NCBI RefSeq assembly: GCF_000380335.1
Contig: NC_021149.1
Location: 4,392,501 to 4,456,500 of the forward strand
Origin: Azotobacter vinelandii CA
GTDB lineage: Bacteria > Pseudomonadota > Gammaproteobacteria > Pseudomonadales > Pseudomonadaceae
Reading direction: 5' to 3'
Length of the DNA: 64,000 bases
Below, piece by piece: positions 10,508-43,500 of the stretch. The notes beneath the pieces are model-generated. The model made no database searches and was not told the DNA's origin. It saw only the letters and a program-made list of their open reading frames with translations. How positions within the stretch are numbered: position 1 is the stretch's first letter; each line of letters starts with the position of its first letter. Both the position numbers and the translations under genes were made by a program.

Positions 10508-10523
10508 AGCAGCAGCCGTGCCA
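10508..10523 (-). promoter_or_regulatory. Sigma-54 (-24/-12) promoter of sfnG
   Basis: Read on the minus strand the site is TGGCACGGCTGCTGCT, matching TGGCACG-N4-TTGCW with one mismatch in the -12 box. The invariant GG and GC have the correct 12-bp spacing. It ends 73 bp before the sfnG ATG. SfnG of P. putida is known to be controlled by the sigma-54 activator SfnR, which agrees with this reading. Confidence 0.85.
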
Positions 10524-10578
10524 ACAGGAAAATCGGCTTAAAAATCAGCATCTTGAAAAGAGCGAGCGGATTCTGGCG

Positions 10579-10626
10579 GTGTTCTTGCCGACGCAAGCTG
10601 TTGCGCAGGTGCTGCCCGGCGGACAG
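10579..10626 (-). promoter_or_regulatory. Candidate SfnR enhancer sites upstream of sfnG
   Basis: A distal element GTGCTG-CCCGGC-GGACAG (10609-10626) lies with its near edge 86 bp from the -24 box. A weaker GTGTTC-TTGCCG-ACGCAA (10579-10596) is 30 bp closer. The distal arms are identical to those at 17166-17183. Assignment to SfnR is inferred from the shared geometry at other promoters in the window. Confidence 0.55.
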
Positions 10627-10710
10627 CGTTTGCGCGCCGCGTCCGAACCTGTGCGGTACGTCTCCCGGGCGGAAAGCCATGGGCTGGGAATCGCTTGCCG
10701 GCAATCGAAC

Positions 10711-10726
10711 GCATCGTATCCGATGC
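10711..10726 (+). promoter_or_regulatory. Candidate autoregulatory operator of the hipB-like gene
   Basis: A perfect inverted repeat GCATCG-TATC-CGATGC lies 45 bp before the hipB-like start, with further TGCAT-containing sequence between it and the gene. HipB-type antitoxins usually repress their own promoter by binding TATCC-containing palindromes, and TATCCGATGC fits loosely. Confidence 0.45.
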
Positions 10727-10771
10727 ATATGCTAGTGTTAGGCCAAAACTGCATTGTATAGAGTGCATCCG

Positions 10772-11029
10772 ATGAGCATCGAAACCCTTGGCCGACTGGT
10801 GCGCCGGCTCCGCCGGGAGAAGGGCCTGTCCCAGCAGGCGCTGGCGCAGCGCCTGGGCATGAGCCGTGCGACCATCTCCGGGCTGGAGAACAACAGCGTG
10901 CACGAGGTCGGCATACGCAAGATCGAGGCACTGCTCAACCTGCTCGGCCATTCGTTGACGGCCGAACCCCTGCGCGGACGCTCGACCCTGGACGAAGTCG
11001 TGAAGGAAGGTTTCCATGGCGATCGATGA
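10772..11029 (+). CDS. HipB-like XRE-family transcriptional regulator (antitoxin)
   Basis: Small helix-turn-helix protein (85 residues) of the Cro/C1 type. The HTH covers roughly residues 5-60, with KGLSQQALAQRLGMSRATISGLEN as recognition unit, followed by a short tail. It overlaps the hipA-like frame by 14 bp, the standard arrangement of hipBA toxin-antitoxin operons, so it is read as the antitoxin and autorepressor. A TTG 18 bp upstream is an alternative start. Since the adjacent hipA is truncated, the gene may now act only as a regulator, or be a relic. Confidence 0.82.
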   Translation: MSIETLGRLVRRLRREKGLSQQALAQRLGMSRATISGLENNSVHEVGIRKIEALLNLLGHSLTAEPLRGRSTLDEVVKEGFHGDR

Positions 11030-11603
11030 GGGCCTGCCGGTGATCCTGGACAACCGGCTCGTCGGCCGCCTGGCGCGAAGCGACGCCGACCGGCGCGACA
11101 CGCGCTTCCGATACGAAACCGCCACCGACCCGCGCGATGCGGTGTCGTTGCCGATGCCCGTGCGAGGCGACGAATACCCCTGGCCGCGCGGCGTCCACCC
11201 GGTGTTCGAGATGAACCTGCCCGAGGGCTATCTGCGCCACAACCTCGCCAGGATGTTCTCGAAGGCGATCCGCGGATTCGACGACTACGACCTGCTGGAG
11301 ATCGTCGGCCCCTTCCAGTTGGGCCGTCTCGGAGTCGGAGCCATTCCCGAGCAGGGCATGCCGGACATCAGCATCGGCGAACTGCTGCTGCACGATGGCG
11401 CCGAGGGACTGTTCGACGACCTCATGGCGAAATATGCCCGCTATTCCGGCATTTCCGGCGTCCAGCCGAAGGTACTCCGCGAAAGCCCTCCCCCGACTGA
11501 GCGCCGGCGCCCCGGCCCCGCTCAGTCTCCCGGCCGCCGGCCGACGAAGCTGAACACCAGCACCAGCAGGATCAGCGCCCCGGTGGCGACCTGCTGCCAG
11601 TAG
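11016..11603 (+). pseudogene. Truncated hipA-like toxin kinase (N-terminal domain only)
   Basis: HipA kinases are about 430-440 residues; here only the first roughly 154 can be aligned. PVFEMNLPEGYLRHNLARMF (63-82) and YSGISGVQPKVL (143-154) are the N-terminal subdomain and the entry to the kinase fold. After that the frame reads low-complexity Pro/Arg sequence and runs into the 3' end of the convergent permease gene until a stop at 11603. The kinase core, with ATP-binding and catalytic Asp motifs, is absent. The break near 11480 abuts the transporter operon ending at 11522, suggesting a rearrangement removed the rest. Confidence 0.8.
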
Positions 11604-12505
11604 AAGCTCCAGCCGATCAGCAGCAGGCCGTTGGCGGTGACGTTGAGAAACAGCACGCCGAGCAGCGTGCCGGGGATGTTCGCCCGGCCGTGGCGGTTCA
11701 GGGTGGCGCCGATGAACACCGCGCCGATGGCGTTCATCAGGAAGGCGTTGCCGGACATCGGCACGTAGGCGTTCACCGTCGCCGCCAGCAGGATGCCGGC
11801 CAGGGCGCAGGCGAAGGCGCCGGCGACGAACACCCAGGCGGCGATGCGCCGTTCCGCCAGGCCCGAATAGCGCGCCACCAGCGGCTGGTTGCCGAGCGCC
11901 AGCACCTGCCGGCCGAAGCGCCCGCGGGCCAGCGCCAGACCGTAGACGGCCGCCAGCGCGGCGACCGCCAGCAACGGCAGCGGCACGCCGAAAAACCGCG
12001 CGCCGGCCAGATCCGGCCGCGCCTCGGGCGCCAGGTAATTCGGCTGACCGCCGTCGGACAACAACTGCTGCGCGCTGGTGCCGATGAACAGGCTGCCGAG
12101 GCTGGCGAGGAACGGCGAGATGCGCAGCCCGGCGATCAGCCCGGCGTTGCCGGCGCCGACCAGGGTGCCGGCCAGCAGCGCGCCGCCGAGCGCCAGCGGC
12201 AGGCCGGACCCGGCGTTGAGCAGGGCCACGAAGGCCAGCGCGGAGAAGTCCAGCGCCGTGCCCACCGAGAGGTCGATGCCGCCGGCGGCGATGGCACAGG
12301 TCATGCCGATGGCGACCATGGCCAGCAACACGAAGTTGTTGAGCAGCAGGCTGGACAGGTTGCCGAGGCTGAGAAAACCCGGCGCCGCCAGCGCGAAGAA
12401 CGCCAGGATGGCCACGAACAGCGCCGGCAGCGCCAGGCGCAGCGCCGCCCGCCGGGACGGCCACGACAGGCGCGCGGGGCGCGGGTCGAGGTAGGAATCG
12501 CTCAT
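11522..12505 (-). CDS. Sugar-type ABC transporter permease (RbsC/BPD_transp_2 family), second copy
   Basis: Inner-membrane permease (327 residues) with about eight to ten hydrophobic segments. The family hallmark AAGGIDLSVGTALDFSAL is near residue 75, followed by ANIPGTLLGVLFLNVTANGLLLIG near the C terminus. It lies 1 bp after the other permease gene and is last in a five-gene operon. The two permeases probably form a heterodimer served by the ATPase at 13468-15018. The family normally carries pentoses, but the sigma-54 promoter shared with sulfur genes argues for another cargo. Confidence 0.92.
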   Translation of the reverse strand: MSDSYLDPRPARLSWPSRRAALRLALPALFVAILAFFALAAPGFLSLGNLSSLLLNNFVLLAMVAIGMTCAIAAGGIDLSVGTALDFSALAFVALLNAGSGLPLALGGALLAGTLVGAGNAGLIAGLRISPFLASLGSLFIGTSAQQLLSDGGQPNYLAPEARPDLAGARFFGVPLPLLAVAALAAVYGLALARGRFGRQVLALGNQPLVARYSGLAERRIAAWVFVAGAFACALAGILLAATVNAYVPMSGNAFLMNAIGAVFIGATLNRHGRANIPGTLLGVLFLNVTANGLLLIGWSFYWQQVATGALILLVLVFSFVGRRPGD

Positions 12506-12506
12506 C

Positions 12507-13487
12507 TCAGGGCTCCTTGCGCGACAGGCCGGACAGGGCGACCACCAGCAGGATCAGCACGCCCTGCAGGCCGTTGACCCAGAAGCTGGAAATGTTCAGC
12601 AACTGGAAACCGTTGATCATGAAGCCCACCAGCAGGGTCGCCAGCAGCGTCCCGCCGATGCTCGGCCGCAGGCGCCGGGAGAAGATCGTGCCGAGGAAGG
12701 CGATGGCCACCACCGACAGCAGCATCTCCCCGGACCCCGTGGTGCTGCCGCTGAACCAGGCCGCCGAGCAGAACGCCGCGAGGCTGCCGCACAGGCCGCT
12801 GATCAGGTAGCTGGCGAACACATGGCGGCGCACCGCGATGCCGGCGGCATGCGCCGCCTCCGGGTACTCGCCGACGGCGTACAGGCGCAGGCCGAAGGGC
12901 GTGCAGTCGATCAGCAGGATCAGCAGCGCGGCGACCCCCAGCAGCACCCAGGCCAGCGCCGGCACGCCGAGCCAGACGCCGAAGGCCAGCCATTCCAGCA
13001 GCGGCGAGGCGCTCGGCAGCACGGTGTTCTCGGTCAGCACCAGCTCCAGCCCGGCCACCAGGTTCATGCTGGCCAGGGTCGCCAGCAGCGGCGGCAGGCG
13101 GAAGCCGACCACCACCAGGCCGTTGAGCAGGCCCACCGCCAGCCCCGTGGCGAGGGTCAGGCCGATACCGGCGAAGGCGCCGTAGCCGGCATTGTCGAGG
13201 GTCGCGTAGACCGCCGCGGAAAGCCCCAGGTTGGCCGCCACGGACAGGTCCAGCCCGCCGGACAGCACGTTGGAGCCGCCGCCGACGATCACCGTGGTGA
13301 GGCCGAAGGCGAGGATGCCGAGGATCGCCGACTGGGCCAGCACGTTGGCCAGATTGCCCGGCGCCAGGAAGTTCGGCGCGCCCAGGGCGAAGACCAGGAG
13401 GATGGCGGCGAACGCCAGCAGGGCGCCGCGGCGCAGCAGCAGCGTGCCCAGGCGCGGGCGGGCCGCTTCAACCGGGGATGGATTCAT
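12507..13487 (-). CDS. Sugar-type ABC transporter permease (RbsC/BPD_transp_2 family), first copy
   Basis: Inner-membrane permease, 326 residues, with GGGSNVLSGGLDLSVAANLGL near residue 70 as the family signature. The inserted SNVLSG before GLDLSVA is slightly unusual. Ends in a short Arg/Lys cytoplasmic tail. It overlaps the ATPase gene by 20 bp and is followed after 1 bp by the second permease, so the three are translationally coupled. Substrate unknown; see the operon's two binding proteins. Confidence 0.92.
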   Translation of the reverse strand: MNPSPVEAARPRLGTLLLRRGALLAFAAILLVFALGAPNFLAPGNLANVLAQSAILGILAFGLTTVIVGGGSNVLSGGLDLSVAANLGLSAAVYATLDNAGYGAFAGIGLTLATGLAVGLLNGLVVVGFRLPPLLATLASMNLVAGLELVLTENTVLPSASPLLEWLAFGVWLGVPALAWVLLGVAALLILLIDCTPFGLRLYAVGEYPEAAHAAGIAVRRHVFASYLISGLCGSLAAFCSAAWFSGSTTGSGEMLLSVVAIAFLGTIFSRRLRPSIGGTLLATLLVGFMINGFQLLNISSFWVNGLQGVLILLVVALSGLSRKEP

Positions 13488-15018
13488 GGACGGAAGTCTC
13501 CTGCTGTGCGACGGCGCCGGTGGCGACGGCCAGCAGCTTGTCGCTGTCCGCCTCGCCGGCCTCGAAACGGGCGGCGATCCGCCCGCGGTGCATGACGTGG
13601 ATGCGCTCGCAGAGGCCGAGCAGCTCCGGCAGGTCGGACGAGAGGATCAGCACCCCGGCGCCCTCCCTGGCCAGTTCGCCGATCAGCCGGTAGATCTCCG
13701 CCTTGGCGCCGATATCGATGCCGACGCTGGGCTCATCCAGCAGGTACAGGCTGGAACGGCGGGCGAACCACTTGGCCAGCGCCACCTTCTGCTGGTTGCC
13801 GCCGCTGAGCTGGCGCACGGTGGCCTGCGGGCCGGCGCTCTTGATCCGCAGCCGCTCGATCAGGCCGAGCGTCTCGCGCCGCTCCGCGCGTCGCGACAGC
13901 AGGCCGAAGCGGGAGAAACGCGGCAGTGCCGCCAGGGTGACGTTCTCCTGCACGCTCAGGTCCAGGGCCACGCCCTGCCGGCGGCGCTCCTCGGGCAGCA
14001 GCGCGATGCCCTCGGCCACCGCCTGGCGTGGCGTGCGCAACGCCAGCGGACGGCCGTCCAGGCGCACCTCGCCGGTATCCGGCGGGGCCAGGCCGAACAA
14101 GCTCTTCAAGAGCTCCTTGGCGCCGGAACCGACCAGCCCGGTGAGGCCGACCACCTCGCCGCGGCGCACCCTCAGGTCGATGTCGCGATAGGCCCGCCCG
14201 CGTCCCAGGCCGCGCACCTCCAGCAGCGGCGCGCCGGGCGCCGGCGCGCTCTTCGGGTACAGCTCGCCGACCTCGCGGTTGACCATCAGCCGGGCGATCC
14301 GCTCCGGCGAAGTGGCGCGTGGATCGACCTCGGCCACGTCGCGGCCGTTGCGCAGCACCGTCACCCGGTCGCAGAGCGCCTCGATCTCCTGCAGGTAGTG
14401 GGAGATGTAGACGATCGCCAGGCCCTCGTCGCGCAGGCGGCGGACGATGCACAGCAACCGCTCCACTTCGCTGCGCACCAGCGCCACGCTGGGCTCGTCG
14501 AAGACCAGCACGCGCGGCTTGACGATCAGCGCGCGGACGATCTGCAGCACCTGCTGTTCGGCGCTGCTCAGTTCGCCGACCAGCGCGCCGGCCGGCAGGC
14601 GCAGGCCGAACCAATGCTCCAGCAGGCGCTCGGCCTCGCGCCGCTGGGCGCGGCGGTCGAGCCAGGGGCCGAGCCGGCGTTCCTGGCCGAAGAACAGCGC
14701 CTCGTCGACCGTGAAGCCGGCCGGCAGCAGGCGCTCCTGGTGGATGAAACGGATGCCCAGGCGCTCCACCTGGCGCGGATCGAAATGCGCATGCGCGCGG
14801 CCGTCGACCAGCAGGCTGCCGGCGTCCGGCCGGTGGATGCCGGCCAGCACCTTGATCAGCGTCGACTTGCCGGCGCCGTTCTCGCCCACCAGCCCGTGCA
14901 CGCTGCCGCGCCGCACGCGCAGGCTGGCGCCGTCCAGCGCGCGGGTGGCGCCGAAGCGCTTGACGATGCCGCGCAGTTCCAGGACGACCGCCTGCGGCGG
15001 CGTTTCGGCGGCGCTCAT
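13468..15018 (-). CDS. Sugar-type ABC transporter ATPase with two nucleotide-binding domains (RbsA/MglA family)
   Basis: 516-residue duplicated ATPase. Domain 1 has Walker A GENGAGKST near residue 45, the signature ELSSAEQQ, and Walker B VLVFDEP. Domain 2 has a degenerate P-loop, GLVGSGAKELLK, which is normal for this family, an intact LSGGNQQKVALAKW and YLLDEPSVGID. It overlaps both neighbours (the binding protein by 4 bp and the first permease by 20 bp). In the ribose family only one of the two sites hydrolyses ATP efficiently, which the degenerate second P-loop supports. Confidence 0.94.
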   Translation of the reverse strand: MSAAETPPQAVVLELRGIVKRFGATRALDGASLRVRRGSVHGLVGENGAGKSTLIKVLAGIHRPDAGSLLVDGRAHAHFDPRQVERLGIRFIHQERLLPAGFTVDEALFFGQERRLGPWLDRRAQRREAERLLEHWFGLRLPAGALVGELSSAEQQVLQIVRALIVKPRVLVFDEPSVALVRSEVERLLCIVRRLRDEGLAIVYISHYLQEIEALCDRVTVLRNGRDVAEVDPRATSPERIARLMVNREVGELYPKSAPAPGAPLLEVRGLGRGRAYRDIDLRVRRGEVVGLTGLVGSGAKELLKSLFGLAPPDTGEVRLDGRPLALRTPRQAVAEGIALLPEERRRQGVALDLSVQENVTLAALPRFSRFGLLSRRAERRETLGLIERLRIKSAGPQATVRQLSGGNQQKVALAKWFARRSSLYLLDEPSVGIDIGAKAEIYRLIGELAREGAGVLILSSDLPELLGLCERIHVMHRGRIAARFEAGEADSDKLLAVATGAVAQQETSVHESIPG

Positions 15019-16022
15019 GCGTCGCCCCGGAGACGCTTGACCTCGTCGACGTTGTCCGCGGTGGTCAGCAGGGTGTCGACGAAGGTTTCCCGCGGCAGAT
15101 CGCGCTCACCGGCCAGGTAGCGGGCGACGTTGTGCACCGCGATGCGGCCGATCAGCGCCGGCTGCTGCGCCACCACCGCCGCCACCGGACTGTCCGGCCG
15201 TTTGAGCAGTTCCAGCACCTCGGGCGTGCCATCCACGCCGTAGGTGCGGATCTCTTTGCGCCCGGCCTCGATCAGCGCCTGGCTGGCGCCGAGTTGCGGC
15301 AGGTCCCAGGCGGTCCAGATGGCGTCGATTTCGCCCTTCGGGTACTTGTTGAGCAGCGCGGCGACCTGCGCGCGGGCGTCCTGCACGGTGTTGGGGATGA
15401 CGTCGCGCAGCTCCGGCTGGAGGAATTCGATCTGCGGGTAGTACTTGGTCACCAGCCTCAACTGGTCGTAGCGGATACCGCAGCTCGGCACCCCGTAGAA
15501 ACCGTTGAAGACCAGCACCCGGCCCTTGCCGCGCAGGTCCGCCACCAGCTTCTTGGCCAGCACCAGTCCGGTGCTCCAGTTGTCCGCCGACACCGTGTTG
15601 ACGGCGTGCTGCGAGGGCACCTCGATGGTGAACAGCGGGATGCCGGCGGCGGCGATGCGCTTGAACCAGGGATCGATGATGCTCAGGGTGCCGAGGGTGT
15701 GGATCACCGCGTCGGGCTTCTGGGTCACCAGGTTCTGCAACTGGGTGACCAGCGCCTTGTCGTTGCGCCCGGCGTCCAGGGTGATCGGCGTGCCGCCCAG
15801 GCGCCGCACCTCCTCCACCTGCGCCTGGAAGGCGCGGCTGTCGAAATAGATGCTGGTGCCCACGGTGCTGATGGCGATGCGCTTGCCGGCCAGCGAGGGC
15901 GCTTCGCCCTCCGCTGCGGCTTGCGTCGTGGCCCGCGCCAGGGGCGCGGCCAGCCCCAGCGCCAGCAGCGCCGAGGAGGCGCCGAGCAGGGCGCGCCGGG
16001 AAATGCCGTCGTGTTCGTTCAT
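15015..16022 (-). CDS. Sugar-type ABC substrate-binding protein with a Tat-like signal
   Basis: 335-residue periplasmic binding protein (Peripla_BP_4 fold). The N terminus contains SRRALLGASSALLALG, a twin-arginine export signal, unlike the plain Sec signal of its tandem paralogue. The mature parts of both proteins share SLAGKRIA, GGTPITLDAGRND, FNGFYGVP, LQPELRDVIPNTVQDARAQ and TYGVDGTPEVLELLKR, so they are a duplication. The start ATG overlaps the stop of the upstream copy (ATGA). Two receptors for one permease pair suggest two related ligands. Ligand not identifiable from sequence. Confidence 0.9.
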   Translation of the reverse strand: MNEHDGISRRALLGASSALLALGLAAPLARATTQAAAEGEAPSLAGKRIAISTVGTSIYFDSRAFQAQVEEVRRLGGTPITLDAGRNDKALVTQLQNLVTQKPDAVIHTLGTLSIIDPWFKRIAAAGIPLFTIEVPSQHAVNTVSADNWSTGLVLAKKLVADLRGKGRVLVFNGFYGVPSCGIRYDQLRLVTKYYPQIEFLQPELRDVIPNTVQDARAQVAALLNKYPKGEIDAIWTAWDLPQLGASQALIEAGRKEIRTYGVDGTPEVLELLKRPDSPVAAVVAQQPALIGRIAVHNVARYLAGERDLPRETFVDTLLTTADNVDEVKRLRGDA

Positions 16023-17005
16023 TGGTCGCCTCGCAGTCGGTTGACTTGGTCCAGGTTGTCGCGGGTGGTGAGCAGCGTCGCCACGTGGGTTTCCTTCGGC
16101 AGGTCGCGCTGACCGGCCAGATAGCGGGCGACGTTGCGCACCGCGGTGCGGCCGATCAGCTCCGGCTGCTGGGCGACCACCGCGCCGACCGGCGAATCCG
16201 CCCGCTTGAGCAGTTCCAGCACCTCGGGGGTGCCGTCGACGCCGTAGGTGCGGATCTCGCTGCGCCCGGCGTCGATCAGCGCCTGGCTGGCGCCGAGCTG
16301 GGGAATGTCCCAGGCGGCCCAGATCGCGGCGATCTCGCCCTTCGGGTACTTGTTGAGCAGCGCGGCGATCTGCGCGCGGGCGTCCTGCACGGTGTTGGGG
16401 ATGACGTCGCGCAGCTCCGGCTGGAGCACCTTCAGCCCCGGCCGGGCGGCCAGCACCTTCTGCAGTTCGTCGTAGCGGATGGCGCACACCGGCACGCCGT
16501 AGAAACCGTTGAACACCAGGATGTTGCCCTGGCCGCCGGTGTCCTGCGCCAGTCGCTCGGCCAGCGCGCGGCCGGCCGCGTGGTTGTCGGAGGTGGTGTT
16601 GTTGAGGCTGTACTGCGAGGGCACGTCGATGGTGAACAGCGGGATGCCGGCGGCGCTGATGCGCCTGAGCCAGGGATCGATGACGCTCAGGGTGCCGAGG
16701 GTCTGGATCACCGCGTCGGGCTTCTGGGTCACCACCGTTTGCAACTGGGTCACCAGGTTGCGGTCGTTGCGCCCGGCGTCCAGGGTGATCGGCGTGCCGC
16801 CCAGGCGCTTTATCTCGTCCACCTGGGCCTGGAACGCCTTGATGTCGAAGTAATGGCTGGTCCCGGTCATGCTGACCGCGATGCGCTTGCCGGCCAGGGA
16901 CGGCACCTGTGCGCCGTCGTCGGCCGGGGCCGGCGCGGCGCCCAGCAGCAGGGAGAACAGGGTGAGCAGGCGCAACGGCGCCCGCAGGCGGGTGAGCGGA
17001 TTCAT
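16019..17005 (-). CDS. Sugar-type ABC substrate-binding protein with a Sec signal
   Basis: First gene of the operon, 328 residues from MNPLTRLRAPLRLLT, which has AAGGA before the ATG. The signal peptide ends near APAPA-DDG. The Peripla_BP_4 fold is recognisable from KRIAVSMTGTSHYF, TLDAGRNDRNLVTQLQ, AAGIPLFTIDVPS and GVDGTPEVLELLKR. It is the paralogue of the next gene. The promoter region carries a strong -24/-12 site at 17066-17081 and the same enhancer-like elements as sfnG, so expression probably rises during sulfate limitation. An organosulfur ligand is therefore more plausible than a sugar, though unproven. Confidence 0.9.
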   Translation of the reverse strand: MNPLTRLRAPLRLLTLFSLLLGAAPAPADDGAQVPSLAGKRIAVSMTGTSHYFDIKAFQAQVDEIKRLGGTPITLDAGRNDRNLVTQLQTVVTQKPDAVIQTLGTLSVIDPWLRRISAAGIPLFTIDVPSQYSLNNTTSDNHAAGRALAERLAQDTGGQGNILVFNGFYGVPVCAIRYDELQKVLAARPGLKVLQPELRDVIPNTVQDARAQIAALLNKYPKGEIAAIWAAWDIPQLGASQALIDAGRSEIRTYGVDGTPEVLELLKRADSPVGAVVAQQPELIGRTAVRNVARYLAGQRDLPKETHVATLLTTRDNLDQVNRLRGDQ

Positions 17006-17065
17006 GGGGGGTCCTTGTGTACGGGGCACTGGCGCTACCGGAGCGGCAGCCGCCGGAAGCCACGG

Positions 17066-17081
17066 AGCAGAGCCCGTGCCA
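17066..17081 (-). promoter_or_regulatory. Sigma-54 promoter of the sugar-type ABC operon
   Basis: Minus strand reads TGGCACGGGCTCTGCT, a near-perfect TGGCACG-N4-TTGCW with GG and GC at the right spacing, 60 bp before the ATG at 17005. It differs from the ligase/transporter promoter at 34889-34904 (TGGCATGGGCTCTGCA) at only two positions. Confidence 0.85.
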
Positions 17082-17135
17082 ACCGGGAAAACCCCGAGCG
17101 ATCAACGACTTGGCGAACGGCGCCAAGCCCCCGCG

Positions 17136-17183
17136 CTGTCCCCGCCGGGGCAAGTTGCTGAACGAGTGCTGCGCGACGGACAG
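17136..17183 (-). promoter_or_regulatory. Candidate SfnR enhancer sites for the sugar-type ABC operon
   Basis: Distal element GTGCTG-CGCGAC-GGACAG (17166-17183), near edge 85 bp from the -24 box, has the same arms as the sfnG distal site. A weaker CTGTCC-CCGCCG-GGGCAA (17136-17153) is 30 bp closer. Spacing matches the other promoters. Confidence 0.6.
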
Positions 17184-17353: not shown

Positions 17354-17401
17354 CTGTTGCCCTGGCCGCAGTCCGCCAGCAAGTTGCCCCGCAGGCAACA
17401 G
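17354..17401 (+). promoter_or_regulatory. Candidate SfnR enhancer sites for the sfnB pair
   Basis: CTGTTG-CCCTGG-CCGCAG (17354-17371) lies 84 bp and TTGCCC-CGCAGG-CAACAG (17384-17401) 54 bp before the -24 box at 17455. The first has a perfect left arm and the second a perfect right arm of CTGTTG-N6-CAACAG. The 30-bp offset is the one seen at other promoters here. Confidence 0.65.
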
Positions 17402-17454: not shown

Positions 17455-17470
17455 GGGCATGGCCTGTGCA
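17455..17470 (+). promoter_or_regulatory. Sigma-54 promoter of the sfnB pair
   Basis: GGGCATGGCCTGTGCA: GG and GC are in register with TGGCACG-N4-TTGCA, with T-to-G at the first base, C-to-T in the -24 box and T-to-G in the -12 box. It ends 66 bp before the ATG at 17537. Confidence 0.75.
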
Positions 17471-20065: not shown

Positions 20066-20070
20066 AAGAC

Positions 20071-23376: not shown

Positions 23377-23392
23377 AGCAGGTTGCGTGCCA
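23377..23392 (-). promoter_or_regulatory. Sigma-54 promoter of ribBA
   Basis: Minus strand TGGCACGCAACCTGCT matches TGGCACG-N4-TTGCW with one mismatch and correct GG/GC spacing. Its location was predicted from the enhancer pair at 23445-23492 and found at the expected distance, which strengthens the call. Confidence 0.82.
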
Positions 23393-23444: not shown

Positions 23445-23492
23445 CTGTTGCGCTGGCGACAGTCCGTGCGAATGCTGTTGCCCGATGCACAC
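23445..23492 (-). promoter_or_regulatory. Candidate SfnR enhancer pair upstream of ribBA
   Basis: CTGTTG-CGCTGG-CGACAG (23445-23462) and CTGTTG-CCCGAT-GCACAC (23475-23492) start exactly 30 bp apart. Their near edges are 53 and 83 bp from the -24 box. Both have a perfect left arm. Confidence 0.7.
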
Positions 23493-24951: not shown

Positions 24952-24993
24952 GGGAGTGTCCTCTGCGTGGAAAGCGGCACCGGCGGTGCCGAT

Positions 24994-25026
24994 GGTGGGC
25001 AAGGCTGCGCCGTTGCCCACCCTACG
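24994..25026. repeat. GTGGGCAA...TTGCCCAC inverted repeat, second copy
   Basis: GGTGGGCAAGGC...GCCGTTGCCCACCCTACG in the gap before livF is nearly identical to 17252-17284. A dispersed hairpin element of the REP/BIME kind is the simplest reading. Confidence 0.65.
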
Positions 25027-29223: not shown

Positions 29224-29264
29224 GGTGATCTCCGGCGCCCGAGGCGCGAAAAGGGAATCTCGGT

Positions 29265-30599: not shown

Positions 30600-30660
30600 G
30601 TCGTTCTCTTTCTCGGGTTGCGCGTCTCCTTCCCGTCGCCGGGTCAGGCGGTCGTCGGGT

Positions 30661-31719: not shown

Positions 31720-31723
31720 GGCG

Positions 31724-32605: not shown

Positions 32606-32626
32606 CTCGACTCCTGAATATTTTCC

Positions 32627-33058
32627 TCGTCCACCTGTGGGAGAGGGAAAACGAAAAGCGCCCTCTCCCCGGCCCTCTCCCGCAGGCGGGAGAGGGAGAA
32701 TTGGCTTGCCATTTCCCTCCGTCCACCTGTGGGTGAGGGAAAGCGAAAAGCGCCCTCTCCCCGACCCTCTCCCGCAAGCGGGAGAGGGAGAATTGGCTTG
32801 CCATTTCCCTCCGTCCACCTGTGGGTGAGGGAAAGCGAAAAGCGCCCTCTCCCCGGCCCTCTCCCGCAGGCGGGAGAGGGAGAATTGGCTTGCCATTTCC
32901 CTCCGTCCACCTGGGGGTGAGGGAAAGCGAAAAGCGCCCTCTCCCCGGCCCTCTCCCGCGAGCGGGAGAGGGCGAATTGACCCCTCGTCCCCCTGTGGGA
33001 AGGAAGCGGCTCCGACACTCCCCTCGCCCACTTGTGGGAGAGGGGCCGGGGGAGAGGG
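32627..33058. repeat. Four tandem 92-bp repeats between livG and livH of the second cluster
   Basis: Units start at 32627, 32719, 32811 and 32903. Each holds a hexamer-rich lead (CGTCCACCTGTGGG), GAAAGCGAAAAGCGC, the palindrome CCCTCTCCCGC/GCGGGAGAGGG, and GAATTGGCTTGCCATTTCCC. The array ends in the hairpin CCCACTTGTGGG followed by GAGGGGCCGGGGGAGAGGG near 33028-33058, as in the first cluster. It occupies the same livG-livH position as the 42-bp array at 7091-7360 but with a different unit. Confidence 0.9.
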
Positions 33059-33067
33059 AGAAAGCCG

Positions 33068-33856
33068 CTAATGCCGCGTCCCCAGGTAAGCGGCGATCAC
33101 CTCGGGATTGGCCTGCACCTCGGCCGGCGTGCCGTCGCCGACCTTGCGCCCGTAGTCGAGCACCACCACGTGGCCGGACAGGCCCATGACCACCTTGATG
33201 TCGTGCTCGATCAGCACCACGGTGGTCCCCAGGTCGCGGTTGACGTCGGCGATGAAGCGGCTCATCTCCTGCTTCTCCTCGGCGTTCATCCCGGCCATCG
33301 GCTCGTCGAGCAGCAGCAGGCGCGGTTCGGCGATCAGCGCGCGGCCCAGTTCGACGCGCTTCTGCAGGCCGTAGGCGAGGCTGCCCACCGCCACCTCGCG
33401 CCAGGGTTGCAGTTCGAGAAATTCGAGGATCGCCTCGGCCCGCTCGCGAAACCGGCGCGCCTCGCGGCGCGCGTCCGGCAGGCCGAGGGCCTGGGCGAAG
33501 AAGCCGCTGCGCATGTGCCGCGAAAGGCCGGTGAGCAGGTTGTCGATCACGCTCATCTTCTTGAACAGGGCGTTGTTCTGGAAGGTGCGGCCGATGCCGC
33601 GGCGCGCCGCCTCCAGCGGGTGGATACGGCGGAAATGCTCGCGCTCGAAGACCACCTCGCCGGAATCCGGCCGGTACACGCCGTTGAGGATGTTCAGCAG
33701 CGAACTCTTGCCGGCGCCGTTGGGGCCGATCAGCGCGCAGATCTCGCCGCGGCGCACCTCGAACGACAGGGCGTTGATCGCCTTGACGCCCTTGAACGAC
33801 AGGGAGATGTCGCGGACTTCGAGGATCGCCTCGGCGGCGGAAACGGCGGCATTCAT
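33068..33856 (-). CDS. ABC transporter ATP-binding protein, LivG family (second cluster)
   Basis: 262-residue ATPase. Walker A GPNGAGKSS, signature region LAYGLQKRVELGRAL, Walker B LLLLDEPMAGMN, His switch in VVLIEHDIKVVM, C-terminal VIAAYLGTRH. Its start codon overlaps the stop of the ligase-like gene upstream (ATGA), so the two are translationally coupled. Close paralogue of 7384-8166, with the same non-standard YGLQ signature. Confidence 0.93.
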   Translation of the reverse strand: MNAAVSAAEAILEVRDISLSFKGVKAINALSFEVRRGEICALIGPNGAGKSSLLNILNGVYRPDSGEVVFEREHFRRIHPLEAARRGIGRTFQNNALFKKMSVIDNLLTGLSRHMRSGFFAQALGLPDARREARRFRERAEAILEFLELQPWREVAVGSLAYGLQKRVELGRALIAEPRLLLLDEPMAGMNAEEKQEMSRFIADVNRDLGTTVVLIEHDIKVVMGLSGHVVVLDYGRKVGDGTPAEVQANPEVIAAYLGTRH

Positions 33857-34812
33857 GCGACCTGCTCCCGCGTCGCGAGCCGGACCGGCGACGGCCGCGC
33901 CAGCGGCGGCGGCAGGTCGCCGGGCAGGATGCGTTCGAGACGCTGCAGGCCGAGCAGCCCGCGCAGCCGCGCCGCGATCCAGCGCCGCGCGCCGCGCTCG
34001 GGGTCTTGCAGGGCCCAGTCGCTCAGGCGCCGCGTCCAACTGCCGGCGGGCGCCAGGCGCCGTTCGATCTCGGCCTCCAGCGCCTGCCGGCGGCTTTCCG
34101 AGAGCAACAGGCCGGTGGGCGCGATGTCGCGGCGGTCGCGCGCCGCCGACTCGCTGTTCTCCGGGAAGGCGAAACCGGTGCCGCTGTCCAGCCAGTGACG
34201 CAGCAGCAGGCCCAGGCCCTCGGGCCACTCGGTGCCCTCCTCGCTCCACAGCGTTTCCTGGTCGCGGACTTCACTCCACGGCAGCGGCAACGGCGCGAGC
34301 GGCCCGCCTCCGTCCAGCGCGGCCAGCGGCAGCACCCGGCAATTGCCCTGGCGGCGCTGCGCCGAGCGGGCGGAAAACACCAGCAGTTCGTGCGGCAGAT
34401 CCCGCGCGGCATCCAGCCAGCGCGACACGCCCTCGCGGCTCTGCACGAAGGCATGGCTCGGCCGCAGGCGCAGCAGCAGGTCGCGCAGCTCGTCGCCCGC
34501 CGCCAGCCGGCAGGCGGAAACCACCCGGCCACCGGCGGCCCTGGCCGCCAGGGCGAGCAGGATCGCCGTCGGCTCCAGGGCGCCGCTCAGCGCCAGGCGC
34601 GAGCCGGGCCCGAAGCCCTGGCGCTGCAGCGCCAAGCCCAGCCGGGCGACCTCATGCTGCGCATCGACCCAGCGCCAGGCCTTCCAGCGGCCGTGGCGCT
34701 TGTGGCGCAAGGCGATCCGCAGCGGCCGCTCGGCGGCCCAGCGCCCCAGGCGTTCGAGGGCATCGTCGGGCAGGACATCGAGTCCGGGCGGATTCGGCTC
34801 GTGCACGCTCAT
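33853..34812 (-). CDS. Degenerate acyl-CoA synthetase-like protein (second copy)
   Basis: 319 residues from the ATG that has GGGAGGA six to seven bases upstream. RIALRHKRHGRWKAWRWVDA near residue 32 and FAFPENSESAARDRRDIAPT (214-233) align with FadD15-type ligases. The ATP-binding loop has decayed to LWSEEGTEWPEGL (188-200), and all C-terminal catalytic motifs are absent. It is more divergent than 8182-9336 but occupies the equivalent position: directly before livG and overlapping it. Preservation of two shortened copies in two operons argues for a non-catalytic role, for example as a transporter partner. First gene after the sigma-54 promoter at 34889-34904. Confidence 0.72.
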   Translation of the reverse strand: MSVHEPNPPGLDVLPDDALERLGRWAAERPLRIALRHKRHGRWKAWRWVDAQHEVARLGLALQRQGFGPGSRLALSGALEPTAILLALAARAAGGRVVSACRLAAGDELRDLLLRLRPSHAFVQSREGVSRWLDAARDLPHELLVFSARSAQRRQGNCRVLPLAALDGGGPLAPLPLPWSEVRDQETLWSEEGTEWPEGLGLLLRHWLDSGTGFAFPENSESAARDRRDIAPTGLLLSESRRQALEAEIERRLAPAGSWTRRLSDWALQDPERGARRWIAARLRGLLGLQRLERILPGDLPPPLARPSPVRLATREQVA

Positions 34813-34888: not shown

Positions 34889-34904
34889 TGCAGAGCCCAT
34901 GCCA
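34889..34904 (-). promoter_or_regulatory. Sigma-54 promoter of the 10-kb transporter/monooxygenase operon
   Basis: Minus strand TGGCATGGGCTCTGCA, with two mismatches to TGGCACG-N4-TTGCA and correct GG/GC spacing, 76 bp before the first ATG. AT-richer DNA (34905-34945) separates it from the enhancer sites. Confidence 0.84.
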
Positions 34905-34957
34905 AAACACAATCCTTTGATATACATGGAATTTTTCCGGTATTTCGGGCGGCTCGG

Positions 34958-35005
34958 CTGATGCTCGGGGCACAGCCTGCTGATCGGCTGTTGCCTGCCG
35001 GACAG
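34958..35005 (-). promoter_or_regulatory. Candidate SfnR enhancer pair for the 10-kb operon
   Basis: CTGATG-CTCGGG-GCACAG (34958-34975) and CTGTTG-CCTGCC-GGACAG (34988-35005) lie 54 and 84 bp from the -24 box, offset 30 bp. The block around them (CTGCTGATCG between the sites) is nearly repeated at 37930-37940, so the two control regions share an origin. Confidence 0.68.
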
Positions 35006-36368: not shown

Positions 36369-37772
36369 TCAGGCGCCGACCGATTCGGGGCGCTGCGCGC
36401 GCAGCGCCGCCAGGTCGCGGTAGCGGGCACCCGGATGGTTGTCCGGCAGGCGGGGACCCGCGCCGAACAGTTTCTCGCGCAGGGTTCCCGGCGCGTAGTC
36501 GGTCTTGAACACGCCGCGTTTCTGCAACTCGGGCACCAGCAGCTCGACCACGTCGACGAAGGTTTCGTGGCTGACCGCGTAGGCCAGGTTGAAGCCGTCC
36601 ACGTCGGTTTCCTCGACCCACTCCTGCAACTGGTCGGCCACGGTCTGCGGGCTGCCGACGAACAGCGGGCCGAAGCCGCCGATACCGACCCAGTCGGCCA
36701 GTTCCCTGACCGTCCACTGCTTGCTCGGATCGGCCGTGGAGAAGGCTTCGACCGCCGACTGGATGGCGTTGGTATGGATGTGCTTGAGCACCTGGTCGGG
36801 CTGGTACTGGCCGAAGTCCAGCCCGGTCCAGCCGGAGATCAGCGCCAGCGCGCCCTCGTAGCTGACGTACTGCTTGTAGTCGCGCCACTTGGCCTGGGCC
36901 TCGGCGTCGGTCTCGCCGAGGATCACCGTCTGCAGGTTGAGGATGCGGATCTGGTAGGGGTCGCGTCCGGCCTCGACGGCGCGCTGGCGGATGTCCGCCA
37001 CGGTCTTCTTGAGCACGGCCTTGGACGGCGCGGCGACGAACACGCATTCGGCGTGCTCGGCGGAGAAGCGCCGGCCGCGGCTGGAGGCGCCGGCCTGGAA
37101 GAGCACCGGGGTACGCTGCGGCGAGGGTTCGCAGAGGTGGATGCCGGACACCTGGAAGTGTTCGCCCCGATGGTCGATCTCGTGGACCTTGGCCGGATCG
37201 GTGAACAGCCGGCGCTCGCGGTCGCGGATCACCGCGCCGTCTTCCCAACTGCCTTCGAGCAGCTTGTAGATCACTTCCAGGTATTCGTCGGCATGGTCGT
37301 AACGCTCGTCGTGACCGCTCAGCGCCTGCTGGCCGAGGCTGCGCGCGCCGCTGTCCAGGTAGGAGGTGACGACGTTCCAGCCGACGCGGCCCTTGGTCAG
37401 GTGGTCCAGGGTCGACAGGCGGCGGGCGAACGGATAGGGATGCTCGAAGGCCAGCGAGGCGGTCAGGCCGAAGCCGAGGTGTTCGGTGACCAACGCCATC
37501 GGCGTGATCAGCGCCAGCGGATCGTTGACCGGCACCTGGGTGGACTGGCGGATCGCCGCCTCGCCGTTGCCGTTGAGCACGTCGTAGATGCCGATCACGT
37601 CGGCGATGAAGATGCCGTCGAGCTTGCCGCGTTCGAGCAGCCTGGCCAGGTCGGTCCAGTACTCCAGGTCCTTGTACTGCCAGGCGCGGTCGCGCGGGTG
37701 CGCCCAGAGGCCGGGGGACTGGTGACCGACGCAGTTCATCTCGAAAGCGTTGAGGACGATTTTGCGGGACAT
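36369..37772 (-). CDS. DszA/NtaA-family FMNH2-dependent monooxygenase
   Basis: 467-residue luciferase-like monooxygenase. NtaA/DszA hallmarks: LNAFEMNCVGHQSPGLWAHP near the start, GIFIADVIGIYDV near residue 55, LSTLDHLTKGRVGWNVVTSY near 118, EPSPQRTPVLFQAGASSRG near 217, FVGSPQTVADQLQEWVEE near 370 and DYAPGTLREKLFGAGPRLPD near 425. It is first in a two-gene operon with an SfnB-like flavoprotein, under a -24/-12-like promoter 69 bp upstream. Together they could oxidise and cleave a C-S or C-N bond; the substrate is not predictable. Confidence 0.88.
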   Translation of the reverse strand: MSRKIVLNAFEMNCVGHQSPGLWAHPRDRAWQYKDLEYWTDLARLLERGKLDGIFIADVIGIYDVLNGNGEAAIRQSTQVPVNDPLALITPMALVTEHLGFGLTASLAFEHPYPFARRLSTLDHLTKGRVGWNVVTSYLDSGARSLGQQALSGHDERYDHADEYLEVIYKLLEGSWEDGAVIRDRERRLFTDPAKVHEIDHRGEHFQVSGIHLCEPSPQRTPVLFQAGASSRGRRFSAEHAECVFVAAPSKAVLKKTVADIRQRAVEAGRDPYQIRILNLQTVILGETDAEAQAKWRDYKQYVSYEGALALISGWTGLDFGQYQPDQVLKHIHTNAIQSAVEAFSTADPSKQWTVRELADWVGIGGFGPLFVGSPQTVADQLQEWVEETDVDGFNLAYAVSHETFVDVVELLVPELQKRGVFKTDYAPGTLREKLFGAGPRLPDNHPGARYRDLAALRAQRPESVGA

Positions 37773-37841: not shown

Positions 37842-37857
37842 TTCAGGAACCGTGCCA
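37842..37857 (-). promoter_or_regulatory. Sigma-54-like promoter of the DszA/flavoprotein operon (atypical -12)
   Basis: Minus strand TGGCACGGTTCCTGAA has a perfect -24 box, but the -12 box has GA where GC is usual. Support comes from the enhancer pair at the standard distance and from the 69-bp leader. Activity should be lower or need stronger activation. Confidence 0.6.
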
Positions 37858-37911: not shown

Positions 37912-37959
37912 GTTTTGCCTGGGATACAGTCTGCTGATCGACTGTTGGGCCGCGCACAC
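37912..37959 (-). promoter_or_regulatory. Candidate SfnR enhancer pair for the DszA/flavoprotein operon
   Basis: GTTTTG-CCTGGG-ATACAG (37912-37929) and CTGTTG-GGCCGC-GCACAC (37942-37959) are offset by 30 bp and lie 55 and 85 bp from the -24 box. The stretch between and around them mirrors 34958-35005. Confidence 0.62.
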
Positions 37960-37997: not shown

Positions 37998-39332
37998 TCA
38001 GCGCAGGCTCAGCGGGTATTCGACGATCAGGCGCAGTTCGTCGATGTCGGCTTCGGCGGTGTGGTCGCCGTTGACCCGGTGGGTGGCCTGCAGGATCTTG
38101 AAGGTCAGGTCCTTGGCCGGCCCGGACTGCACCACGTAGCTGATCCAGAAATTGCGCTCCCAGTGGCGGCCGTCGCGGATGTTCTGGTAGGCGGCGTAGC
38201 CCGGCCCGACCTTGCTGCCGTCGATGTCGGTGCCGCGCAGGTAGCGGGCGATCAGCGTCAGGCCGGGCAGGCCCAGGGCGGCGAAATCGTAGTCGTAGCG
38301 CAGCATCCAGGTGCGCTCGTTGGGGTTGTTGAAGTCGGAGACCTGCGAGCCGGTGTTGAGGAAGAAGTCCCAGGTGTTCCACAGGTAGTCGAAGGGCGAG
38401 TCGTCGTCGATCCGCGTGTGGGTCAGGGTCAGCGCGTGAGGGCCGTGGGTCGCGCCGACGTGGGCGCTCCAGGAATCGTTGTCGATGTCGCCGAGCAGCG
38501 ACTTGCCGGTGTCGCGGGTGCGGATGTACTTGAAGCCGGTGTTGAAGCCCCAGCCGCCGCCCAGCGGCTGTATCCAGTCGCCGTAGAGGGCGGTCTGGTT
38601 CCACACGTCGTCGAGCCGGCCGTGGTGCAGGCGGAAGAAGAAGCGGCCGTCGTACTTGTAGTCGGCGCCGCCGTAGATGAAGTCGTCGGCCTCCTTGAAG
38701 CGCCCGCCGTAGGCGGTGCCCAGATCGCCGTTGTGGGCGGTGGCCGAGCGGTCGCTGCCGGACTCCACCTTGCCGCCCACCAGGGTCAGGCCCTCGATCG
38801 AGGTGTTCTCGAAGAATGCGCCGCGAAAACTCTGCGGCAGCAGGCGGGTATCGCTGGCGTTGATCACCGGGCTGGCCGGCCGGTAATCGCCGTAGCGCAG
38901 CACGGTGTCCTCGAACAGGCGCAGCTTGAGGGCGACGTCGACCTTGCCGAAGTCGTCCTTGGGCTTGCCGTCGAAGTTGTAGCCGCGCCGCGGGATCAGG
39001 CCGTTGCCGGCGTTGCTGTCGCCGACCTGGCCGTCGCCGCCGTCCAGCTTCCAGCCGAACAGGCCGCGCACATCCAGGCCGAAACCGACCGGGCCGGGCG
39101 TGAAACCCGACTCGAAGGTGGCGGTCACCCCGTGCGCCCACTCGGCGCGCATGTGCTTGCTCTCGCCGGTCTGCGGGTTGCGGAACCCGCTGTCGTTGCG
39201 AAAGTCCTGGCGCATGTAGAAGTTGCGGTTGAACACCTTGAAGGTGGAATCCTCGAAGAAGCCCTCGCCGGCGGCGAGCGACGGCAGGGCCAGAGCGATG
39301 GACAAGGAAAGGTAGCGGACGGGGCTGTGCAT
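37998..39332 (-). CDS. OprD-family outer-membrane porin
   Basis: 444-residue outer-membrane beta-barrel for small-molecule entry. Signal peptide MHSPVRYLSLSIALALPSLA with cleavage near AAG-EGF, then FFEDSTFKVFNRNFYMRQDF and GVTATFESGFTPGPVGFGLD, both typical of OprD. The alternating aromatic strands end in LIVEYPLSLR. OprD channels are selective for amino acids, aromatic acids or related anions. Here it has its own sigma-54-like promoter with the SfnR-type element, so it probably admits an organosulfur compound. Specific ligand unknown. Confidence 0.92.
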   Translation of the reverse strand: MHSPVRYLSLSIALALPSLAAGEGFFEDSTFKVFNRNFYMRQDFRNDSGFRNPQTGESKHMRAEWAHGVTATFESGFTPGPVGFGLDVRGLFGWKLDGGDGQVGDSNAGNGLIPRRGYNFDGKPKDDFGKVDVALKLRLFEDTVLRYGDYRPASPVINASDTRLLPQSFRGAFFENTSIEGLTLVGGKVESGSDRSATAHNGDLGTAYGGRFKEADDFIYGGADYKYDGRFFFRLHHGRLDDVWNQTALYGDWIQPLGGGWGFNTGFKYIRTRDTGKSLLGDIDNDSWSAHVGATHGPHALTLTHTRIDDDSPFDYLWNTWDFFLNTGSQVSDFNNPNERTWMLRYDYDFAALGLPGLTLIARYLRGTDIDGSKVGPGYAAYQNIRDGRHWERNFWISYVVQSGPAKDLTFKILQATHRVNGDHTAEADIDELRLIVEYPLSLR

Positions 39333-39391: not shown

Positions 39392-39407
39392 CTCAATATC
39401 CATGCCA
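39392..39407 (-). promoter_or_regulatory. Sigma-54-like promoter of the OprD porin (atypical -12)
   Basis: Minus strand TGGCATGGATATTGAG: good -24 box and TT-G in the -12 box, but GA in place of GC. It lies 59 bp before the porin ATG. The enhancer-like site at 39490-39507 is at the usual 83-bp distance. Confidence 0.58.
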
Positions 39408-39489
39408 GGAAAAAATCCGTTTTTATTCAAATATTTAAATCAAAAGGCCGGACTCCGGCGAATACCCTCAGCAGCAAAGTGCCCATTCG

Positions 39490-39507
39490 CTGTTGCCCGC
39501 CGGGCAG
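39490..39507 (-). promoter_or_regulatory. Candidate SfnR enhancer site upstream of the porin
   Basis: CTGTTG-CCCGCC-GGGCAG, perfect left arm and CAG at the right end, near edge 83 bp from the -24 box. The second site expected 30 bp closer (about 39460) is not clear. The rest of the 282-bp gap is AT-rich (39410-39445). Confidence 0.55.
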
Positions 39508-42928: not shown

Positions 42929-42981
42929 GAATGCGTGCCTCAGGATGAATGCGGGCGCAGCGATGCGCGGTCCATCCTTCC

Positions 42982-42997
42982 GGCAAGCCCCATGCCA
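42982..42997 (-). promoter_or_regulatory. Sigma-54 promoter of the ssuD operon
   Basis: Minus strand TGGCATGGGGCTTGCC, an excellent match to TGGCACG-N4-TTGCW (perfect TTGC), 53 bp before the ssuD ATG. Unlike the others it lacks clear enhancer elements at 54 and 84 bp. The nearest are at 43150-43212. Confidence 0.84.
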
Positions 42998-43149
42998 GAG
43001 CGCACCGGCGACTTCCGCAGCAAAGAAAATTGCGGCGAAATATCGGAAGACGGCAAACAAGAAACGCGATCTTGCAGAAAAAGCCCAACGGATCGCGGAG
43101 CATGCCGGCCCCCTCGTCCGCCGCCGTTACCGCCAGTGCTGCGGGATAT

Positions 43150-43212
43150 CTGTCCTCCCGGCAACACTTTGCGGAGCAAGTGTTGCAGGAGAAACAGTTG
43201 CCCGAGCAACAG
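43150..43212 (-). promoter_or_regulatory. Cluster of SfnR-type elements in the ssuD-msuC divergent region
   Basis: CTGTCC-TCCCGG-CAACAC (43150-43167), GTGTTG-CAGGAG-AAACAG (43180-43197, 30 bp further) and CAGTTG-CCCGAG-CAACAG (43195-43212). The first two keep the 30-bp offset of other pairs but lie about 153 and 183 bp from the ssuD -24 box, roughly 100 bp farther than standard. Confidence 0.5.
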
Positions 43213-43249
43213 TTGAGCCCGCCCAGGCGACAACCTTGCCGAATCCCTT

Positions 43250-43312
43250 AAGCAAATAACAAAAAGATATTTAATCTTGAATTTTTATATCGCCTAGATT
43301 AGCCACATCGAT
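43250..43312. other. AT-rich island in the ssuD-msuC divergent gap
   Basis: The 612-bp gap 42929-43540 has no gene. Amid GC-rich DNA it holds a sharply AT-rich segment (runs such as AAATAACAAAAAGATATTTAA). It lies between the two enhancer clusters, so it could be a bend/IHF region or a site for the sulfur regulator CysB, which favours AT-rich targets. No specific motif can be assigned. Confidence 0.5.
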
Positions 43313-43357
43313 TCTTCGGGCCAGCCGACCGCGATGCGCCAGCCCGGGAGCGGCCAA

Positions 43358-43432
43358 CTGTTGGCTCGACAACAGTCGATCAAGTGTTGCCCCGGCAACA
43401 GCGATTCAACAATGCAGTACCGGAGGCAACAG
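43358..43432 (+). promoter_or_regulatory. Three SfnR-type enhancer elements upstream of msuC-sfnR
   Basis: CTGTTG-GCTCGA-CAACAG (43358-43375, perfectly symmetric), GTGTTG-CCCCGG-CAACAG (43384-43401) and CAGTAC-CGGAGG-CAACAG (43415-43432). The last two end 84 and 53 bp before the -24 box, the same spacing as elsewhere. The perfect palindrome defines the consensus. Sites before the sfnR operon imply autoregulation. Confidence 0.75.
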
Positions 43433-43484
43433 GAACGGCTTGGTGAAATTCGCCAAGCCGTTGATTCGAAAGCACTTCCTGGCA

Positions 43485-43500
43485 TGGCACAGGGATTGCC
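43485..43500 (+). promoter_or_regulatory. Sigma-54 promoter of msuC-sfnR
   Basis: TGGCACAGGGATTGCC matches TGGCACG-N4-TTGCW except for A at the seventh base and C at the last. The start codon of msuC is 40 bp downstream. Confidence 0.86.

Follow-up and report, generated by a model that had tools for sequence, protein, structure and literature searches.

The stretch of DNA analysed here (the window) comprises 64,000 nucleotides, bases 4392501-4456500 of the one-contig 5.37 Mb genome of Azotobacter vinelandii CA. It contains a sulfur island in which genes for monooxygenases, SfnB-type oxidoreductases, a porin, ABC importers and a second copy of ribBA lie together with sfnR, the gene of a sigma54 activator. 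An earlier note on this DNA had proposed nine -24/-12 promoters in the island, eight of them with a shared upstream element, and all nine -24/-12-like sequences are present where they had been placed. Departures from the consensus are seen at 17455, which is weak (GGGCAT-N5-GTGC), and in the -12 elements of 37842 (TGAA) and 39392 (TGAG). The promoters and their associated elements are listed below in window positions. Dyad distances are the number of bases between the near edge of the 18-mer and the T of TGGC in the -24 box; E-values refer to the promoter profile R1 and bits to the dyad weight matrix, both described further on, and IHF denotes the integration host factor.

10508..10523, minus strand: -24/-12 promoter of sfnG, TGGCACGGCTGCTGCT (R1 E-value 3.0e-13)
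10543..10555, minus strand: IHF-consensus match of the sfnG promoter, 1 mismatch, near edge 19 bp from -24
10609..10626, minus strand: SfnR-type dyad of sfnG at 85 bp, CTGTCCGCCGGGCAGCAC (13.6 bits), with a third half-site CAACA 11 bp on
17066..17081, minus strand: -24/-12 promoter of an operon with two Peripla_BP_4 proteins and a sugar-type ABC system (R1 E-value 3.1e-13); genes behind it at 16019-17029, 15015-, 13468-15018, 12507-13487 and 11522-12505
17100..17112, minus strand: IHF-consensus match of the 17066 operon, 1 mismatch, at 18 bp
17166..17183, minus strand: SfnR-type dyad of the 17066 operon at 84 bp (9.7 bits, p=0.0011), with CAGCA half-site
17354..17371, plus strand: dyad of the sfnB-like promoter at 83 bp (16.5 bits), with CAGCA half-site; R1 match over positions 1-75, E-value 6.2e-5
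17384..17401, plus strand: second dyad of the sfnB-like promoter at 53 bp (9.7 bits)
17455..17470, plus strand: weak -24/-12, GGGCATGGCCTGTGCA, before the SfnB-like gene ending at 18775
23377..23392, minus strand: -24/-12 promoter of the second ribBA copy
23445..23462, minus strand: second dyad of ribBA at 52 bp (19.4 bits)
23475..23492, minus strand: dyad of ribBA at 82 bp (13.3 bits)
34889..34904, minus strand: -24/-12 promoter upstream of the branched-chain-type (liv-type) ABC genes 24175-34249 (R1 E-value 7.7e-12)
34910..34922, plus strand: perfect IHF-consensus match of the liv-type operon, in the opposite orientation, at 5 bp
34958..34975, minus strand: second dyad of the liv-type operon at 53 bp (12.6 bits)
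34988..35005, minus strand: dyad of the liv-type operon at 83 bp (17.0 bits), with CAGCA half-site
37842..37857, minus strand: -24/-12 promoter of the NtaA/DmoA-type LLM monooxygenase gene 36369-37772 (R1 E-value 2.1e-12)
37912..37929, minus strand: second dyad of the LLM gene at 54 bp (12.2 bits)
37942..37959, minus strand: dyad of the LLM gene at 84 bp (9.4 bits, p=0.0016), with CAGCA half-site
39392..39407, minus strand: -24/-12 promoter of the OprD-family porin gene 37998-39332 (R1 E-value 3.6e-9)
39425..39437, minus strand: IHF-consensus match of oprD, 1 mismatch, at 17 bp
39490..39507, minus strand: dyad of oprD at 82 bp (13.5 bits)
42982..42997, minus strand: -24/-12 promoter of the SsuD-type alkanesulfonate monooxygenase gene, which breaks the distance rule
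43150..43212, minus strand: three ssuD dyads at 152, 182 and 197 bp from the -24 box; no dyad at 80-86 bp
43358..43375, plus strand: perfect dyad CTGTTGGCTCGACAACAG at 109 bp of the sfnC promoter
43384..43401, plus strand: dyad of sfnC at 83 bp (22.2 bits), with CAACA half-site
43415..43432, plus strand: weaker dyad of sfnC at 52 bp (8.2 bits, p=0.0029)
43454..43466, plus strand: perfect IHF-consensus match of sfnC, CAAGCCGTTGATT, at 18 bp
43485..43500, plus strand: -24/-12 promoter of the sfnC-sfnR unit (R1 E-value 4.7e-13)
43541..44728, plus strand: sfnC, an SfnB/DszC/MsuC-type flavin oxidoreductase gene, scoring under the NCBIfam cut-offs
44738..45841, plus strand: sfnR, encoding the sigma54 activator SfnR

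Eight of the nine promoters had been read as carrying an element of the form CTGTTG-N6-CAACAG at 83-86 bp. Such dyads are found at 85, 84, 83, 82, 83, 84, 82 and 83 bp, that is, at 82-85 bp, which reflects a one-base difference in counting. By a simple mismatch count they carry 1-4 mismatches in 12, so that several look weak to the eye. To keep fitting out, the training set of a symmetric weight matrix was limited to 16 sites that precede sfnG in other genomes, and the window flanks (1-9000 and 46000-end) served as background. With this matrix eight of the nine window promoters are recovered at the expected distance, with best sites at 80-86 bp of 9.4-22.2 bits (p≤0.0016 each), while the ssuD promoter fails the same test (p=0.86). 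Over the nine promoters, hits of at least 9 bits number eight in the bin 80-86 and four in the bin 52-58; every other distance bin has at most one, except for three hits at 269-275.

The window holds 47 matches to the dyad at up to 3 mismatches, compared with 16.7 expected and a maximum of 28 in 100 shuffles, but there is no excess in the whole genome (259 dyads at up to 2 mismatches versus 267 for the reversed pattern), so that the dyad signal is local and positional. The plain genome-wide mismatch count, which ignores position, was rejected as a test and replaced by the matrix and profile tests.

The distance rule extends to related loci of the Pseudomonadaceae. In the less selected scan, which took in 56 sigma54-like hits from 23 loci, the dyads that reach 11 bits lie at 80-85 bp (24) and at 50-54 bp (6), with none at 60-79 bp. 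A larger set of 399 non-redundant sigma54-like hits in family loci, which includes 15 loci (L268-L282) chosen for their R1 matches as well as the matrix training sites, has 91 dyads at 80-87 bp and none at 74-79 or 88-94 bp; the same set has 15 at 50-54, 5 at 72-73, 24 at 97-99 and 7 at 108-110 bp. Among 286 sigma54-like hits in 77 unrelated control loci no dyad occurs at 20-250 bp. Likewise, 47 sigma54-like hits in loci of the same genome outside the island show no dyad at 80-87 bp and five elsewhere.

The distance is thus narrow and discrete, but it is not as fixed as had been claimed: some sfnG promoters have the dyad at 72-73, 97-99 or 129-176 bp, and ssuD has its dyads at 152, 182 and 197 bp. 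A dyad at 82-87 bp is present in 48 of the 75 family sfnG genes (34 from the strict scan, two second candidates, the window's own gene and that of locus L186, and ten of genus g6 at 84 bp by reading). The remaining genes have it at 72-73 (5), 97-99 (12) or 129-176 bp (5), one has a weak dyad at 81 bp, and for 4 of the 75 no promoter with a dyad was found. The -24 box itself varies in form, with TGGTAC at 16 promoters of sfnR operons and TTGG-N10-TTGA in the ten g6 sfnG promoters; the latter box was recognised after the strict scan had missed it.

Seven second elements, 26-31 bp closer to the promoter, had also been proposed. Second dyads do exist at 52-54 bp, but they are convincing (p≤0.003) in five of the eight promoters, those of the sfnB-like gene, ribBA, the liv-type operon, the LLM gene and sfnC, and unconvincing in sfnG (p=0.15), the 17066 operon (p=0.05) and oprD (p=0.20). 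The palindrome at 43358-43375, from which the arms of the element had been defined, is indeed perfect but sits at 109 bp, not 83. Over 39 promoters outside the genus, a second dyad at a spacing of 30-31 bp, three helical turns further in, was counted 12 times; it is an optional and not a fixed part of the layout. A more constant partner, missed by the earlier note and new here, is a third half-site, CARCA, located 11 bp past the inner arm of the dyad. It is present in 33 of the 39 promoters, where no other offset exceeds 5 counts, and in six of the eight window promoters.

A further part of the layout, also new here, is a putative IHF site. The IHF consensus is matched within 1 mismatch in 24 of 48 promoters, compared with 2.5 expected from shuffles, and 21 of these 24 matches share one orientation, with the near edge 17-19 bp from the -24 box. 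Four of the nine window promoters (sfnG, the 17066 operon, oprD and sfnC) have such a match at 17-19 bp, and the LLM gene has one with 2 mismatches. An IHF-like site at a set place appears to be a frequent component, absent from other promoters.

Profile R1, a sequence-only profile of 118 positions, was built from 36 promoters, all outside the genus of the window, that had been picked with a dyad at 79-87 bp (40 were found, one was dropped as chance and three near-duplicates were omitted). The searches score the best first-pass candidates, 150 of 3184 in this genome and 12 in each family genome with stricter filters, so that misses are possible. On the 5.37 Mb genome R1 gives six matches over at least 111 of the 118 positions, with E-values from 3.0e-13 to 3.6e-9, all of which lie in the island: sfnG, the 17066 operon, sfnC, the LLM gene, the liv-type operon and oprD. 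The ribBA promoter is matched partially (E-value 0.30). Outside the island the best matches are promoter halves, with E-values from 1.2e-4 downward in rank, and one long match (positions 1-106) reaches only 0.31. As far as R1 sees, the predicted regulon of this genome is the island.

The extended target list is supported by related genomes, in which the same arrangement of dyad and promoter (hereafter the code) is conserved before sfnG, sfnC, SfnB-type, oprD, LLM, ribBA and other genes. The ribBA promoter of the island had been located from its enhancer pair, and this placement is upheld by the same -24/-12 with dyads at 81/51 bp in genome G001 and at 82/52 bp in G012, where the ribBA behind the coded promoter is 89% identical to that of the island. 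Before sfnB-like genes, related-form -24/-12 sequences with dyads at 84-85 bp occur in loci L203, L279 and L032. Further targets elsewhere include OmpW porins, MsuE-type flavin mononucleotide (FMN) reductases, SsuA-type binding proteins and AMP-binding enzymes, one of three of which falls under the Pfam cut-off; first genes behind the code were assigned mechanically in other genomes and several were left unnamed. The layout might have been inherited by duplication of one ancestral promoter, its exact geometry not being selected, as several targets are paralogues in one cluster and some spacers are alike among sfnG promoters. Between targets, however, the spacer sequences are unlike while the positions of dyad, half-site and IHF-like site stay, and the code precedes genes as unrelated as OprD and OmpW porins, ribBA, SsuA-type proteins and AMP-binding enzymes in distant genera; we regard such an origin as quite improbable.

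The ribBA gene of the island (22077-23297) is a second copy. Another RibBA-like protein (42% identity) is encoded at genome position 640645 and a RibA-like protein at 645299. The second copy could supply flavin for the FMN monooxygenases. The operon at 11522-17029, which lies under the code, comprises two Peripla_BP_4 binding proteins with sugar-type ABC permeases and ATPase within the sulfur island, and the region 25049-30599 combines three Peripla_BP_6 binding proteins and an LLM monooxygenase within one branched-chain-type ABC cluster.

SfnR conforms to its earlier description as a sensorless sigma54 activator. PF00158 is matched at residues 25-187, the AAA+ domain beginning at residue 25, with no sensor domain matched; the GAFTGA motif is present, and a helix-turn-helix lies at the C-terminus. 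The gene immediately follows an SfnB/DszC-type gene and has an SsuD-type gene nearby, and proteins 80-81% identical to island SfnR occur in named Pseudomonas sp. genomes. A chromate-transporter family gene (45891-47336) is located directly downstream of sfnR.

To follow the code in relation to its presumed reader, 298 family genomes were surveyed with cut-offs of E≤1e-95 for SfnR homologues (found in 111), E≤1e-140 for SfnG (75) and E≤1e-6 for R1. A match to R1 is present in 90 of the 111 genomes with an SfnR homologue and in one of the 187 without (G073); after removal of the training genomes and the window's own genus the counts are 64 of 85 versus one of 186. The Fisher p of 2e-42 overstates this evidence, as the genomes are related. 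R1 matches are found in 27 of 37 genomes that have sfnR but no sfnG, and G211, the only genome with sfnG and without an sfnR homologue, has no R1 match, and the 1.1 kb ahead of its sfnG lack a dyad. The code therefore follows sfnR rather than sfnG. This agrees with SfnR as the reader proposed in the earlier note, although the fixed two-dyad layout attributed to it needed correction. Beyond the family, a Cupriavidus basilensis genome (L033; L308) with a 61% identical SfnR contains a perfect dyad, CTGTTGCCGGCGCAACAG, with a CAACA half-site, R1 matching L033 in its enhancer part only (E-value 7.5e-5).

Another sigma54 activator might instead read the code, either a paralogue such as that at genome position 2235455 or several SfnR-type proteins, with sfnR merely co-regulated. 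The genome holds 26 further SfnR matches, of which one is 55% identical over residues 3-343, and at least three matching genomes (G085, G101 and G107) carry the code with a best homologue of a second class, 61-64% identical and with a different helix; judging by these genomes, the code may have more than one SfnR-type reader. On the other hand, the recognition helix of island SfnR (SRNVTRAQL) is close to those of the SfnRs of other genera and differs from that of the 55% paralogue (SRHALRTLL), all six strong genome matches surround the island sfnR, and the sfnR unit itself bears the code, in this genome as in others. Altogether a different reader seems unlikely. Divergently upstream of the 55% paralogue, locus L112 has a weak partial R1 match (E-value 0.1).

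In the sfnR unit of the island, 10 bases separate sfnC from sfnR, and the -24/-12 ahead of them is accompanied by dyads at 83, 109 and 52 bp and a perfect IHF-consensus match; the likely start of sfnC is GTG 43541, since residue 74-82 of the longer open reading frame is where the profile matches start. A same-strand R1 match 1.2-3.1 kb upstream of sfnR is seen in at least 14 genomes, including that of the window. At 20 further sfnR operons a strict TGGCA pattern found no -24 box, but reading of the sequences showed TGGTAC. With this pattern, adopted after sight of the data and with the distance not tuned, 16 of the 20 genomes show, at 1.3-3.2 kb upstream of sfnR, a TGGTAC-type -24/-12 whose dyad is 82-84 bp away, and all 16 promoters carry the CARCA half-site. 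The transcript from these promoters probably includes sfnR. That sfnR is preceded by the code in 16 of these 20 genomes is new here and implies that SfnR would activate its own unit.

In genus g15, all ten coded sfnR-operon promoters have a second dyad that overlaps the first, shifted by 15 bp; immediately upstream of these two dyads is a TATAA-type box. In P. putida SfnR is reported to repress sfnECR, bound downstream of the start site, and CysB to activate it. The overlapping dyads past the TATAA-type box fit this repression, and they also suggest that the same array drives a second, sigma54 start. SfnR might then be a two-way switch on its own operon, shutting a CysB/sigma70 promoter and firing a sigma54 promoter, a possibility that we put forward tentatively and with more doubt than confidence. 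It would have a defined geometry, an overlapping pair just past a TATAA-type box with the inner dyad 83-84 bp from the sigma54 promoter; if true, the operon would be handed from CysB to SfnR and the cell locked into a self-sustaining organosulfur programme with near-rigid enhancer-IHF geometry. The TATAA-like box would also suit dyads that are simply sites of a LysR-type protein such as CysB on ordinary sigma70 promoters, the -24/-12 matches being accidental, and sulfate-starvation genes are normally under CysB. Such an arrangement is very improbable in view of the lock between dyads and -24/-12 sequences (91 at 80-87 bp in the family set, with the flanking intervals empty), which holds for three forms of the -24 box.

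Taken together, the island is very probably an SfnR/sigma54 regulon for obtaining sulfur from organosulfur compounds. The observation behind the earlier note is real and stronger than its author could show. The interpretation given there mostly stands, but the second site, the distance and the count of elements had to be corrected. Several findings weigh against this interpretation. The ssuD promoter breaks the distance rule, with no dyad at the usual place. R1 finds no match at the cut-off in 21 of the 111 homologue-bearing genomes, G073 matches without a homologue, and G085, G101 and G107 have the second-class homologue as their best. Being related, the genomes do not count as independent cases, and the regulator may be inherited along with its targets. 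No NCBIfam model names SfnR, none scoring above cut-off, so that the name rests on gene context and literature. Finally, three of the nine window promoters (sfnB, ribBA and ssuD) have no IHF-consensus match within 3 mismatches, and a loose pattern detects no IHF-like site in any of the 16 sfnR-operon promoters. As to ssuD, its dyad set is kept at 151/181/196 bp in G001 and 153/183/198 bp in G003, and its two outer dyads (43180-43212) overlap with the same 15-bp offset as the g15 sfnR-operon pair. A core promoter 83 bp from the 182-bp dyad was sought by eye, and only a TGG/GC pair with the wrong spacing was found, which was rejected.

From the DNA we infer a regulon that would respond to sulfate and depend on sigma54. 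When sulfate is short, the sensorless SfnR would act in proportion to its own amount. It would bind a composite enhancer, consisting of the dyad TGTTG-N6-CAACA centred ~92 bp upstream of the -24 box, the direct half-site CARCA one helical turn further in and, at a subset of promoters, a second dyad three turns (30-31 bp) inward of the first. IHF bound at many of the promoters would bend the DNA ~24 bp ahead of the -24 box and so let the SfnR ring on the enhancer meet the waiting sigma54 polymerase. The genes so controlled would encode FMN monooxygenases, SfnB-type oxidoreductases, porins, ABC importers and the second RibBA with its possible flavin supply, and activation would feed itself through the sfnC-sfnR unit, which has the same promoter. 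Flavin supply, porins and importers would thereby be added to the sulfur-starvation programme. The code offers a sequence rule for predicting SfnR-responsive genes in hundreds of genomes and a natural promoter set for testing the positions of enhancer, half-site, IHF site and core promoter in sigma54 activation, and it makes autoactivation by a sensorless activator testable.

A literature search, covering sources other than the primary SfnR papers (Endoh 2003/2005, Habe 2007, Kouzuma 2008, Lundgren 2019), found no description of this layout; parts of it (the sfnFG sites, perhaps IHF) may already be in those papers. The CbrB regulon of P. putida (PMC6296734) likewise has a Pseudomonas sigma54 activator with many direct targets, whereas its signal is carbon limitation; the comparison is one of description, not of site sequence. 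Closer in kind, and again likened by description and not by site sequence, are the SfnR regulon of Pseudomonas putida (sfnFG, sfnECR and sfnAB) and SfnR2 of P. aeruginosa, in which a sensorless sigma54 activator lies beside msu/sfn genes and the targets include an sfnG-type gene and sulfate-starvation genes. Unlike the P. putida regulon, the island has a much longer target list, with ABC operons, an OprD porin, LLM genes and ribBA, and a predicted sigma54 promoter on sfnC-sfnR. IHF-assisted sigma54 promoters such as nifH and Pu resemble the coded promoters in having an enhancer ~100 bp upstream and an IHF site between the enhancer and the -24/-12. In contrast to these examples, the IHF-like site of the island type, at those promoters that have it, keeps almost the same position and orientation across many genes and genera.

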